A stretch of 64,000 nt of DNA from Arthrobacter burdickii (GTDB lineage Bacteria > Actinomycetota > Actinomycetes > Actinomycetales > Micrococcaceae), in assembly GCF_030433645.1 (NCBI RefSeq), contig NZ_JAROCG010000001.1, positions 2,170,001 to 2,234,000 of the forward strand. Reading direction: 5' to 3'. Position numbers and translations under genes: made by a program. The number at the start of each line of letters is the position of its first letter. Position 1 is the first letter of the stretch. Positions 36,071-43,345 of the stretch are shown piece after piece. The notes beneath the pieces are model-generated. The model saw only the letters and a program-made list of their open reading frames with translations. It had not been told where the DNA came from and made no database searches.

Positions 36071-37645
36071 TCAGCGGGAGGGCGCGATCTCCGAACCGTC
36101 GATGCCCTCACCGGCACGGAGGTAACGCGTGGTTGCGAGAAGTGCTGATGCGTCGTCGGCGGGCAGGGGTCGGCTGAAGTAGTACCCCTGGCCGCTGGCG
36201 CAGCCGAGCGCCCGCAACTGGTCCGCCTGCTCCCGCGTCTCGATGCCCTCGAAGACCGCTTCGAGTCCGGCCGCCCGGATGAGCTGCAGGATCGCCGCGA
36301 CGAACTCGAGCTGGCCGGTCCTCGTGTTCAGCTCGACCAGGAGGGAGCGGTCCACCTTGACCATGCTGACAGGCAGTTCGCGGAGGTAGCTGATGGAGGA
36401 ATAGCCCGTTCCGAAGTCGTCGATCTCGATGCCGACCCCGAGCTGCTGCAGGCTCAGCAGCGAGTACATCTCCACCTCACCCCGCGTCACGATCGCCGTT
36501 TCGGTGATCTCGATCACGAGGCTGTGCGCCGGCAGATGCAGTGCCCGGAGCAGGGACCGGACGTGGTCGACGAGGTCGAGCTGCTTGAGTTCGACGGCGG
36601 ACAGATTGACCCTCAGCTGGAAGTCGTCGTCGAGCGCGAAGTCCTTCCGCCACTCTGCGAGCTGCCTCAGCGAGTTGGACATGACCCAGCGGTCCAGGTC
36701 GTGGATGACCCCGATCTCCTCGGCCAACGGGATGAAGGTGTCCGGGGGAATCAGTCCGCGCAGGGGGTGCTGCCACCGTACGAGGACCTCGACGCCCAGG
36801 ATCCGGTTCGTGGCCAGCTCCACCACCGGCTGGTAATGGAGGATCAACTCATCGGAACTGATGGCGCCGCGCAACTCGGCGGCCATCTGGCTCCGCAGCT
36901 GCCGCGAGTAGAGCATCACCGGTTCGAAGATCTTGATGATGCTGCGCCCCTCGCGCTTCGCCGCGTACATGGCCGTGTCCGCATCCAGCAGGAGGTCGTC
37001 GGCCGTCTGGCCGGGAGCGCCCAGGCGGACACCGATGCTCGCCTTCGCGGTGACGTGGAGCGAATCCAGCTGGATCTGTTCGCCCAGGACTTCGAGGGCG
37101 CGGCGCGCTACCTGTGTGGCGACTTCCTTTGAGGCGGCAGGAAGTAGGATCGCGAACTCGTCGCCGCCGAGGCGCGCCACGAGGTCGCTCTCGCGTACGA
37201 CGCTGTTGAGCCGAGCGGCGACTTCCTGGAGGACGCGATCGCCGGCATCGTGGCCGAAGCGGTCGTTCACGTTCTTGAAGCTGTCCAGGTCGAGGAGCAG
37301 AAGGGCCGGAGGCGCTGCGCCGTTCGCGGCCTGGCCGAGTGCTTCCTCGATCCCCTCCATCAGCGCGACGCGGTTGGCGAGGCCGGTCAGGGCGTCGGAC
37401 ATCGCCATCTTCATCATGTCCAGGTGTGCCTGGCGAAGCATGGCGGTACGGCTCTCGACGCGCTTCTCGAACTGCTCGTAGACCTGCTCGAGTTCCTCGG
37501 CGAGCAGGTTCACGCCGGTGATGACGGCGTCCACCTCGTCCCTCGCGGTCGAGGGTTCGATGCGGCTGCTCAGTTCTCCTCGGGAGAGCCGGACGATGCT
37601 CTCGACCAGCATCGCGAGCCGGGGGTCCTTGTTGTCAGCGCTCAT
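36071..37645 (-). CDS. Diguanylate cyclase/phosphodiesterase (GGDEF-EAL)
   Basis: A 524-residue cytoplasmic protein. A short helical region (to about residue 85, coiled-coil-like ELEQVYEQFEKRVESR) precedes a GGDEF domain with intact RLGGDEF, then an EAL domain with EVLVRWQHP in place of EALxRW, IEITETAI, EIDDFGTGYSS and KVDRSLL. The catalytic acidic residues and Lys are all present, so both activities are possible. ATG 37645 was preferred because TACGCT lies seven bases upstream. It is downstream of the TPR gene on the same strand after a 516-bp gap. Confidence 0.9.
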   Translation of the reverse strand: MSADNKDPRLAMLVESIVRLSRGELSSRIEPSTARDEVDAVITGVNLLAEELEQVYEQFEKRVESRTAMLRQAHLDMMKMAMSDALTGLANRVALMEGIEEALGQAANGAAPPALLLLDLDSFKNVNDRFGHDAGDRVLQEVAARLNSVVRESDLVARLGGDEFAILLPAASKEVATQVARRALEVLGEQIQLDSLHVTAKASIGVRLGAPGQTADDLLLDADTAMYAAKREGRSIIKIFEPVMLYSRQLRSQMAAELRGAISSDELILHYQPVVELATNRILGVEVLVRWQHPLRGLIPPDTFIPLAEEIGVIHDLDRWVMSNSLRQLAEWRKDFALDDDFQLRVNLSAVELKQLDLVDHVRSLLRALHLPAHSLVIEITETAIVTRGEVEMYSLLSLQQLGVGIEIDDFGTGYSSISYLRELPVSMVKVDRSLLVELNTRTGQLEFVAAILQLIRAAGLEAVFEGIETREQADQLRALGCASGQGYYFSRPLPADDASALLATTRYLRAGEGIDGSEIAPSR

Positions 37646-38161
37646 CGGTCCAAGCGTACGTTCCAGAGGAAGGTCGCGCCGCACGACGACCGGCGGGAAC
37701 CGGTTCGGCTGCTTTGCTGGAACAGGGCTGCGTGCTGCGGACGATGACCGTCGTCATGGCGCTACCCCCGAGTTGTCCCCGCCGAACAAGGAATGGAGCG
37801 CATCGGCCTCTGCCGTCGCGCAGGTCCTGCAGCAGGCGGCGCGATCATGCTTCCGCACTACCTGACGGGGGCAAGATTAGCATTCCTCGCCCCGGATCCT
37901 GCGGACCCTCCGGGTCCGTCCGCACTGCGCTGCCCCTGGGGTCGGTGCTGGCATGAATCCGGGCATGAAGAAGCCCCGGCCAGGGTGGGAGTAATGGGGG
38001 AAAACGCCCGGCCCGACCGGGGCCCGCTGATGACTCTATGCCAGATCCATCCGCTGGCGCACCCCGATGCAAACATACGTTCTACGGGTTTTTCGCTTGA
38101 CTTCCCCCAGCTGGTCAGGGCGTGGAACCGATCCGGCTCCTCCGCGCCAGCACCGCACCGT
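37646..38161. other. 516-bp gene-free region
   Basis: No convincing gene on either strand. The region holds the end of the TPR transcript and the promoter of the GGDEF-EAL gene (minus-strand TACGCT at 37653-37658). An inverted repeat GCCCCGG (37973-37979) and CCGGGGC (38017-38023) surrounds a G-rich stretch and could be a weak terminator. Short open frames here have no ribosome sites and overlap one another. Confidence 0.5.
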
Positions 38162-39196
38162 TCACTGGCCCTGAATGCTCACGATCAGTGCCCGCGCACT
38201 GGAGGCGCGGTCCTCGGCTCCGGACTGCAGGAACAGATCCTCGCTCAGCTCGAGATCCGCAATGGCATCGGCAGCGCTTCCACGGCCCGACTGCGCCTGA
38301 CCTAGAAGGAAGTGCGCCTGAGCGGCCACGTGTGATGCCAGGAGGTGCTTGCGGGCGGTGATCTCGGCGAGGTTTTCGACGGCGGCTTCGAACTGCCCTG
38401 TGAGAACGAGCCACTGCGCTCGAATCAATTTCAATTCGAGGCGGTCGCGTTCGGTGCCGCCGACGATGGAGCTTGCGAGCTCCGCCCGCTCGATGCACTC
38501 GAGAGTCTCGGGCTCGATCACACCGGCCGCGAGGCGGAAATCCGCCGACCCCCGATTGAACCGGGCCCACAAGTCGAGGTCATTCGTCGGTGACAAGGTC
38601 TTCGCCGCAAGCTCGTGGTAAGAAACGCCCTCGGTGATGTTCTTGAGGAGGAAGGCCACGTTGCCGATCGCCCAGTAGGACTGACCCGAATAGGTGTTCT
38701 CCGGGTCTTTGTCGAGAAGGTCCGCAAGGATTCGGCACTCGCTCCATGCGCTCTCAAGTAGACCGCTTTCAGCCAAGACGGCGATGAGCGCGTTCTGAGC
38801 CTCTATGGCGATGGTGTTGTGAATCGGCTCGAGCAGTGCCTCGGATACGGCCCGACGTGCTGCTTCTACGGCTGTGGCGAGATCACCGGTGCCCTGCAAA
38901 GCGAAAGCCCGCAGGGTGAAGATTCGCGCTTGCAATGCCACCGACTGCTGAGTCAGGGGGTGGTTCGCCAGTTCATCCGCCACTTCCAACGACTCGTTCA
39001 TCAGGTCCTGCTTGCGGAGGCACTCCGCCACCAGGAATGAGGCGTTCCACCAGCTCTCCTCTTCGTGGTTCGCCGACGACATCGCGGCCCATTGCTCGGC
39101 AAGCTTCTGCGCGGCCGCATAATTCCGCTGGTTCCATGCATCCCGGGCTTGGAATTCGAGCAGCATGCGTTCGCCAGGATCGTGCTGATGGGACAT
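38162..39196 (-). CDS. TPR-like helical-repeat protein, candidate peptide receptor
   Basis: A 344-residue protein made almost wholly of paired amphipathic helices: for example NYAAAQKLAEQWAAM, QARIFTLRAFALQGTGDL, AIEAQNALIAVLAESGLL, GQFEAAVENLAEIT and AHFLLGQAQSGRGSAADAI. There is no signal peptide, membrane segment, helix-turn-helix or enzyme motif. It is divergent from a small secreted-peptide gene across 204 bp. Size and layout recall Rap/RRNPP receptors, but sequence kinship cannot be shown from here. Base composition is visibly less G+C-rich than neighbouring genes, suggesting transfer or relaxed selection. Function is inference. Confidence 0.7.
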   Translation of the reverse strand: MSHQHDPGERMLLEFQARDAWNQRNYAAAQKLAEQWAAMSSANHEEESWWNASFLVAECLRKQDLMNESLEVADELANHPLTQQSVALQARIFTLRAFALQGTGDLATAVEAARRAVSEALLEPIHNTIAIEAQNALIAVLAESGLLESAWSECRILADLLDKDPENTYSGQSYWAIGNVAFLLKNITEGVSYHELAAKTLSPTNDLDLWARFNRGSADFRLAAGVIEPETLECIERAELASSIVGGTERDRLELKLIRAQWLVLTGQFEAAVENLAEITARKHLLASHVAAQAHFLLGQAQSGRGSAADAIADLELSEDLFLQSGAEDRASSARALIVSIQGQ

Positions 39197-39300
39197 GCGT
39201 ACCTACGACTTCCGGTTGACGGCTGACTCATACCATTCTCGGGTCCGAAGGCTCGGGGGACAATCCTGCGGAAATAGTACAAAATAACTTCGGGAAAAGT

Positions 39301-39330
39301 GTTACAGAAGTGACTGGTGTGGCTTACGAT
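39301..39330 (+). promoter_or_regulatory. Promoter of the secreted-peptide gene
   Basis: GTTACA (39301-39306) and TACGAT (39325-39330) are separated by 18 bp, giving a start near 39337 and a 5' leader of about 64 bases. The surrounding 204-bp divergent region is clearly AT-richer than the rest of the window. Confidence 0.45.
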
Positions 39331-39400
39331 AAATAGTGAGCACCCCGTGGTAGTTAAGCGGGACTCCAACCACTGTCGATCAAGCCAAAGGACGTACACC

Positions 39401-39541
39401 ATGAAGCGCTTCACCTCCGCCCTCCTGCTCGCAACCCTCCTCGTCAGCGGCGGCGCCGCAGCAGCGAACGCTGCTCCCGCCAAGGCCGGCTCCGATACCA
39501 CTGTCTCCTCGACGGACCGTGTTGGTTCGTGGCCCTTCTAG
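39401..39541 (+). CDS. Small secreted peptide precursor
   Basis: A 46-residue protein with AAAGGA eight bases before the ATG. Residues 1-24 are a classical Sec signal: KRF, a hydrophobic core ALLLATLLV and an AxA-type site (AANA before APAK). The remaining 22 residues are hydrophilic, Ser/Thr-rich, and end in DRVGSWPF. No Cys, lipobox or antimicrobial motif is seen. It is divergent from the TPR gene and has its own promoter and hairpin. A signalling propeptide whose C-terminal piece is sensed by the TPR protein is the leading hypothesis; a cell-wall peptide or toxin is possible. Confidence 0.75.
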   Translation: MKRFTSALLLATLLVSGGAAAANAAPAKAGSDTTVSSTDRVGSWPF

Positions 39542-39605: not shown

Positions 39606-39652
39606 GATACCGCGGGCACCCTCGTCTCTGGGGAGGGAGTGCCCGCGGTATC
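39606..39652 (+). terminator. Terminator after the secreted-peptide gene
   Basis: GATACCGCGGGCAC (39606-39619) and its perfect inverse (39639-39652) form a 14-bp stem with a 19-base loop, followed by TCTTTG. A smaller hairpin ACCTGA/TCAGGT lies between it and the stop codon. Confidence 0.75.
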
Positions 39653-43132: not shown

Positions 43133-43204
43133 TGGGGTATGGTGTAATTGGCAACACACTGGTTTCTGGTACCAACATTCTAGGTTCGAGTCCTGGTACC
43201 CCAG
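43133..43204 (+). tRNA. tRNA-Gln (CTG)
   Basis: 72 nt fold as a cloverleaf with acceptor TGGGGTA/TACCCCA, anticodon loop TTCTGGT giving CTG, and T arm GGTTCGAGTCC. The discriminator is G; CCA is not encoded. Confidence 0.95.
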
Positions 43205-43272: not shown

Positions 43273-43345
43273 GGCCCCATCGTATAGCGGCCTAGTACGC
43301 TGCCCTCTCACGGCGGTAACGCGGGTTCGAATCCCGCTGGGGTCA
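43273..43345 (+). tRNA. tRNA-Glu (CTC)
   Basis: 73 nt with acceptor GGCCCCA/TGGGGTC (one G-T pair), anticodon loop CTCTCAC giving CTC, and T arm GGGTTCGAATCCC. The discriminator is A. It lies 68 bp after tRNA-Gln. Confidence 0.95.

Follow-up and report, generated by a model that had tools for sequence, protein, structure and literature searches.

In Arthrobacter burdickii, the gene of a 344-residue helical-repeat protein and that of a 46-residue peptide are transcribed away from each other. Do the two form a signal and its receptor and, if so, on what does the receptor act? RRNPP-type intracellular peptide quorum sensing has so far been described mainly in relatives of Bacillus and Streptococcus (Firmicutes). 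We analysed the 64,000-nt stretch of DNA that holds the pair (the window) together with homologous loci in other genomes. The features discussed below are these, each with its basis in brackets:

36071..37684 (likely start ATG 37645), minus strand: HAMP-GGDEF-EAL gene, proposed output (Pfam, recurrent neighbour)
38162..39196, minus strand: gene of the HTH-less TPR receptor, 344 aa, eight predicted TPRs and a capping helix (ORF, AlphaFold2 model, homologs)
39197..39400, unstranded: divergent intergenic region, 204 bp (51% G+C)
39302..39330, plus strand: promoter-like block TTACAG-17-TACGAT of the peptide gene (alignment of 14 loci)
39401..39541, plus strand: propeptide gene, 46 aa, predicted to be secreted (ORF, ribosome site, signal, purifying selection)
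39515..39538, plus strand: C-terminal tail DRVGSWPF, proposed mature pheromone (W and P invariance, tail classes)
39606..39652, plus strand: hairpin 3′ of the peptide gene, weak T run (folding energy)

A sequence-only reading by a model had described a TPR-like gene and a peptide gene in divergent orientation, and both ORFs lie where it placed them. The peptide (MKRFTSALLLATLLVSGGAAAANAAPAKAGSDTTVSSTDRVGSWPF) starts at ATG 39401 and stops at 39539–39541; the listed ORF begins earlier, at GTG 39317. The gap is AT-rich, as that reading held, relative to its surroundings (51% G+C versus 70% in the window), and the Sec signal and good ribosome site that it saw are recognizable: the signal, for which charge and hydrophobicity were the only criteria, ends ANA-AP near residue 24, and AAAGGA lies 5′ of the ATG. 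Its two further claims, that the peptide gene has its own promoter and a strong terminator, stood only in part. The promoter-like block is recognizable in 11 of 14 loci in an alignment of capped size, but a consensus promoter scan does not list it; the hairpin is strong (−37 kcal/mol, z −4.05), but its T run is weak and a strict terminator scan found nothing 3′ of the peptide gene. Between 34 and 44 kb, Rfam at its gathering score gave two tRNAs only, and no known RNA near the GGDEF-EAL gene; the tRNA genes lie beyond gltX on the plus strand, at 43133–43204 and 43273–43345.

The peptide gene looks, from its sequence, like that of a pheromone precursor. Across 17 orthologs of 46 aa it is under purifying selection, with pN/pS of 0.29 in the signal, 0.31 in the linker and 0.45 in the tail, such that the tail changes no slower than the other parts; its most variable positions are 38, 42, 43 and 46. 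Because these orthologs were picked by the pattern DR[VI]..WP, the constancy of those letters among them is no result; W and P are invariant across 23 aligned peptides. Many related propeptides repeat the motif. Two to four WP motifs are present in 22 of 74 propeptides that face receptors without an HTH, as in the window, and two to eight in 73 of 77 that face receptors with one; GNWPDPM repeats occur in propeptides of Pseudarthrobacter and Sinomonas.

Could the larger protein bind such a peptide? AlphaFold2 predicts eight TPR-like helix pairs and a cap (pLDDT 94.3, pTM 0.88), a superhelix with a concave face whose repeat number lies within the five to nine TPRs that define RRNPP/RRNPPA receptors (PMC9765709; this and the sources below are cited from part of their text). 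The helix pairs begin at residue 7, leaving no additional N-terminal bundle of the kind formed by the three helices of Rap. Pfam gives sub-threshold matches only, mostly TPR-like, with no HTH and no enzyme, in line with the earlier description of a helical-repeat protein that lacks both. LGN TPR superhelices (TM ~0.7) and designed TPRs rank first in a Foldseek search with the model, and no RRNPP protein is among its best 50 matches; a sequence profile of the receptor group matched zero RRNPP chains in the PDB. For its TPR part, a sequence match to RRNPP receptors of known structure was sought and not found.

LGN binds peptides along its inner surface, and in TPR receptors Asn side chains on the inner helices hold the peptide backbone. 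In the receptor group, the inner A helices, assigned as inward-facing from the usual TPR arrangement rather than from coordinates, are on average more conserved than the B helices (0.74 versus 0.61), and N51, N179, N214, R221, E254 and R259 on A helices are conserved at 95% or above; the highest value for any one helix belongs to the outer B6 (0.87). The near-invariant inner residues would be compatible with binding of a putative pheromone in the modelled groove. The sequence-only reading had named the lack of a concave peptide groove in a predicted structure as a ground for refutation, and the high-confidence eight-TPR model, with its on average more conserved inner helices, did not refute it.

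The receptor is spread through one family. Homologs are present in all 35 genomes of the genus (its own included), in none of 22 genomes that represent other families of the order and, at E ≤ 1e-15, in 116 of 245 family genomes from 17 of 32 genera; the closest among named relatives are from Arthrobacter agilis, at 79–80% identity. An order-wide search at E ≤ 1e-8 matched 26 of 396 genomes, 22 in the family and four in one other family (f17), and a class-wide search at E ≤ 1e-15 matched 6 of 394. The 80 loci kept from 226 relatives come under the titles Arthrobacter, Paenarthrobacter, Pseudarthrobacter, Sinomonas or Micrococcaceae, with one record mistitled. A record titled Vibrio cholerae 35D (WNZI01000017.1, locus L039) carries an Arthrobacter-type locus in full synteny and is mislabelled. 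A phage or plasmid origin was rejected, with zero receptor homologs in the viral_contigs, phage and plasmid collections. Receptor copies that look broken, with a split or an internal stop, occur at L157, G112 C6:312227-313233 and G270 C1:190364-191377.

The pairing of peptide gene and receptor gene is conserved. All 29 same-genus loci that have upstream DNA (L002–L024 and L026–L031, L025 being left out as a contig end) show a divergent signal-like peptide with a terminal or internal WP, in a scan for small ORFs that have a charged N terminus and a run of hydrophobic residues; it demanded neither a tail nor WP. The other counts use a WP requirement fixed after peptides had been seen. By it, 77 of 80 named-genome loci have a signal-like ORF whose final 30 residues include WP, the exceptions being L052 and L054, both at contig ends, and the first tandem receptor at L057. 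Among distinct HTH-less receptors with 520 nt or more of upstream DNA, 74 of 75 face a WP peptide, three more having too little upstream DNA for the count. The same filter passed 15 of 710 random flank segments (~2%) and 65 of 4000 window draws, in which draws near the locus were skipped yet still counted. Receptors with an HTH have an adjacent WP peptide in 78 of 107 distinct cases, including L210, where the ORF is probably a chance match, and 29 have none; when 22 peptide-less HTH loci were scanned without the WP demand, a single ORF passed (L173), and it looks spurious. Receptor, enzyme-linkage, pair and tail counts were deduplicated by the last 300 residues. L157, scored as HTH-less yet with a damaged HTH-like sequence upstream in the same open frame, was dropped from the pair and enzyme-linkage counts.

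The adjacency in relatives that the sequence-only reading had proposed to check is thus kept, and the TPR gene without a peptide gene, which would have spoken against it, is rare (1 of 75 HTH-less loci). Receptor and tail distances are correlated (r 0.65, 0 of 999 permutations, uncorrected for shared descent). In f17, at two of seven loci (L253, L254), an HTH-TPR gene stands opposite the gene of a putatively secreted peptide in which VGGSWP occurs two or three times.

How do the two kinds of receptor relate? Those of the sister clade have an extra 70–74 N-terminal residues with an XRE-like HTH (HTH_31, E 3.8e-11). When 105 receptors are placed on a tree, a single branch (bootstrap 100, SH-aLRT 97) separates the HTH-less ones from the rest, which takes one change, and one change also suffices in a quick tree of 185 rows in which L157 is unlabelled. 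Since the HTH is also carried by distant paralogs (L032, L218, L219) and by six of the seven f17 loci, as judged by eye, the HTH-less type more likely arose by loss of the domain than by gain, as far as the sequences tell. The earlier notion of a Rap-like rather than DNA-binding receptor gains strength from this HTH-bearing sister clade, which faces the same kind of peptide. Among 12 HTH-type loci in an alignment of capped size (for example, L113, L076 and L064), the divergent region holds CATTTTACAATG in 11, and TTGACA and TGTCAA flank the element in all 12; from its sequence, this region between receptor and peptide genes is likely to be a candidate operator and promoter region. The genome of the window itself has an HTH-TPR paralog (L032, G000 C2:306900-307856), about 30% identical to the receptor and without a convincing adjacent peptide gene; the same is true of HTH-TPR paralogs L218, L219 and L260–L262. 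It is possible that L032-like paralogs eavesdrop on the WP peptide or on another peptide.

Structural matches to RRNPP proteins appear with an HTH-type sister model (pLDDT 88.7). Its best 50 Foldseek matches include pLS20 Rap with and without Phr*, Rap-CSF, RapH-Spo0F, PlcR-PapR and PlcR-PapR-DNA, with the PlcR-PapR complexes at ranks 8 and 24 and at low TM (0.39–0.58); overall, its RRNPP matches have TM of 0.39–0.62 and an r.m.s.d. near 10 Å or more. Domain III of MalT superposes better (TM 0.60/0.68, r.m.s.d. 4.5). By sequence, the HTH group matches through its HTH only: PlcR at 8.2e-4 and ComR weakly at 0.07, with other HTH proteins closer, such as a phage immunity repressor at 1.4e-5.

The receptor gene is followed, on its own strand, by the HAMP-GGDEF-EAL gene (Pfam: GGDEF 1.4e-45, EAL 1e-72, HAMP 6.4e-6), which encodes a type of enzyme known for synthesis and breakdown of c-di-GMP. 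Its product is the one EAL protein over the cut-off in the genome, which has three GGDEF proteins. Because ~480 nt separate the two genes, an operon in the window is unproven. Across relatives, the DNA retrieved shows a same-strand GGDEF-EAL gene with 63 of 78 distinct HTH-less receptors, tandem receptors sharing one enzyme, versus 0 of 117 HTH rows with flanks of 1.5–5 kb (107 distinct, the rows not being deduplicated). Among the 63, 42 enzyme genes lie 4–700 nt downstream and 7 further downstream, 8 are extrapolated to begin within the last part of the receptor gene and 6 lie upstream, past the peptide gene. Of the 63, 55 retain an intact RxxD-5-GGDEF and 60 an intact E[AV]L[VIL]R; some of the others may be truncated where the DNA stops. 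The flanks of the other 15 receptors show no GGDEF-EAL gene, for five of them because the enzyme lies 4–5 kb further on (two copies each at L202 and L206, and L058; seen in the matching loci L059, L056 and L058). This linkage, newly described here, is to a large extent inherited rather than independent.

The enzyme might nonetheless be a merely positional neighbour, with the signal–receptor core intact and the receptor acting on an unlinked regulator, as Rap proteins do. Its absence from the HTH rows is difficult to square with that explanation, as is its persistence in different genomic settings: in the window clade, the gene has leuB-ilvE on one side and the pair on the other, with FAH-gltX beyond the pair, and six Paenarthrobacter-type loci keep TPR and GGDEF-EAL together with no leuB, ilvE, FAH or gltX within 8–11 kb. 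Linkage also persists in the six loci in which the enzyme lies past the peptide gene, and at L067 the listed receptor and enzyme frames overlap by 4 nt. An unlinked target would more readily accommodate the gap in the window, the loci L168 and L171, which have no GGDEF-EAL gene within 2.5 kb downstream, and the GGDEF-EAL homologs (≤51% identity) of G130 and G222, two of 12 genomes searched, in which only HTH-type receptors were seen. We consider an unlinked target rather doubtful, and lean towards c-di-GMP, through GGDEF-EAL, as the output of the HTH-less branch.

A second alternative is that the HTH-less protein is a sponge or competitor, which would soak up the peptide and thereby tune an HTH-TPR transcription factor, here the L032 paralog. 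That the genome has such a paralog with no peptide gene of its own, and that many same-genus genomes give distant second matches of the HTH-TPR kind, would suit a sponge, but the paralog is too dissimilar in sequence to lend it much weight, and the linkage to GGDEF-EAL would be left unexplained. HTH and HTH-less receptors that share a genome also face different peptides: G187, for example, has NWPDPM at one locus and GWWPN at another (L125 and L142). A sponge is improbable. In five of seven genomes with tandem receptors (L202–L206), each copy has its own peptide beside it, and these differ in class, LIDDWPH/MIDNWPN-type versus GNWPD/GNWPG-type; in the other two, the first copy either has a contig end close by (L060) or lacks a peptide, with 1.1 kb of upstream DNA (L057). 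Still less credible than a sponge is an antimicrobial, cell-wall or structural peptide beside a TPR protein that is an unrelated adaptor for GGDEF-EAL: small secreted peptides do have many roles, but these share a short tail motif, occur as tandem copies with spacers, have been duplicated together with the receptor and face the HTH-type sister as well.

The peptide and the TPR protein are probably, on these genomic grounds, the signal and receptor of an RRNPP-like intracellular system. The propeptide would be exported through Sec, trimmed outside the cell until only a short C-terminal piece, roughly (D)RVGSWPF, is left, and re-imported by an Opp-type importer; eight SBP_bac_5 proteins over the cut-off in the genome could serve import, none of them tied to the pair. 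The mature peptide would then sit in the inner groove of the predicted TPR superhelix. With the HTH lost, the receptor would act by protein–protein contact, the HTH-type branch presumably regulating transcription, and its most likely target would be the neighbouring HAMP-GGDEF-EAL enzyme. A receptor acting on that enzyme would let the peptide level set c-di-GMP, with a presumed sign of effect. To the full proposal, of an HTH-less, Rap-like receptor that evolved in the Micrococcaceae and directly controls a bifunctional c-di-GMP enzyme, such that a secreted WP pheromone sets c-di-GMP through the only EAL protein over the cut-off in the genome, we give an even chance. The sequence-only reading had the pairing right but understated it, overlooking the GGDEF-EAL neighbour, the multi-copy propeptides and the spread through the family.

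How far does the likeness to known systems extend? As in Rap-Phr and NprR, a TPR protein of ~340–425 aa adjoins a signal-bearing propeptide, and HTH-less and HTH branches stand side by side as Rap does beside NprR (PMC9765709). Repeated pheromones and receptors without their own peptide are likewise known from RRNPPA systems (PMC9765709, PMC11343458; the features compared here are drawn also from PMC10075063). The present system differs in being actinobacterial, from Micrococcaceae and one further family, rather than from Firmicutes, in its divergent gene order, in propeptides of up to 140 aa and in the GGDEF-EAL linkage. The window model has no Rap-type three-helix bundle; the N-terminal HTH, present in all RRNPP receptors but Rap, is missing from the window protein and present in its sister clade; and the TPR part has no sequence match to any RRNPP structure. 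PlcR-PapR combines an HTH-TPR receptor, as in the sister clade, with a short C-terminal pheromone, but the window protein lacks the HTH, and tail motif and organism differ. LGN/Pins for the window model and MalT domain III for the HTH-type sister are fold analogies only, at 11–17% identity. That the pair works like Rap/Phr is supported; that it is a Rap/Phr, RRNPP by descent, goes further than the data, because only the sister clade's HTH provides a sequence link, and an unspecific one.

For the proposed output, a precedent for TPR control of a GGDEF enzyme comes from RcbA and RcbB of Vibrio vulnificus, TPR proteins encoded beside a GGDEF domain that control c-di-GMP (PMC12282931). RcbB is a TPR fused to GGDEF, and the available text names no pheromone (PMC12282931), whereas here TPR and HAMP-GGDEF-EAL belong to two different proteins, and the TPR gene stands opposite a peptide gene.

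A survey that applied profiles of known receptors to 13,513 complete bacterial genomes found RRNPPA systems in Firmicutes, according to the part of its text available (PMC9765709). A second survey covered Firmicutes and viruses only, and its available text is silent on absence elsewhere because nothing else was examined (PMC10075063). In the accessible part of a review of actinobacteria, the entry for Arthrobacter consists only of AAA, LuxR_C-like and REC (PMC4748050). Our literature search, with preprints and most subscription papers outside its scope, returned no RRNPP-type system for Arthrobacter or its relatives, and tail motif strings occurred only in two unrelated papers. If the proposal is true, common soil actinobacteria would have a pheromone system in which receptors come in two architectures and the many related signals can be read from sequence. 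With the HTH-less branch, control of c-di-GMP by a peptide could be tested directly, and quorum sensing would be wired directly into second-messenger metabolism in an actinobacterium.
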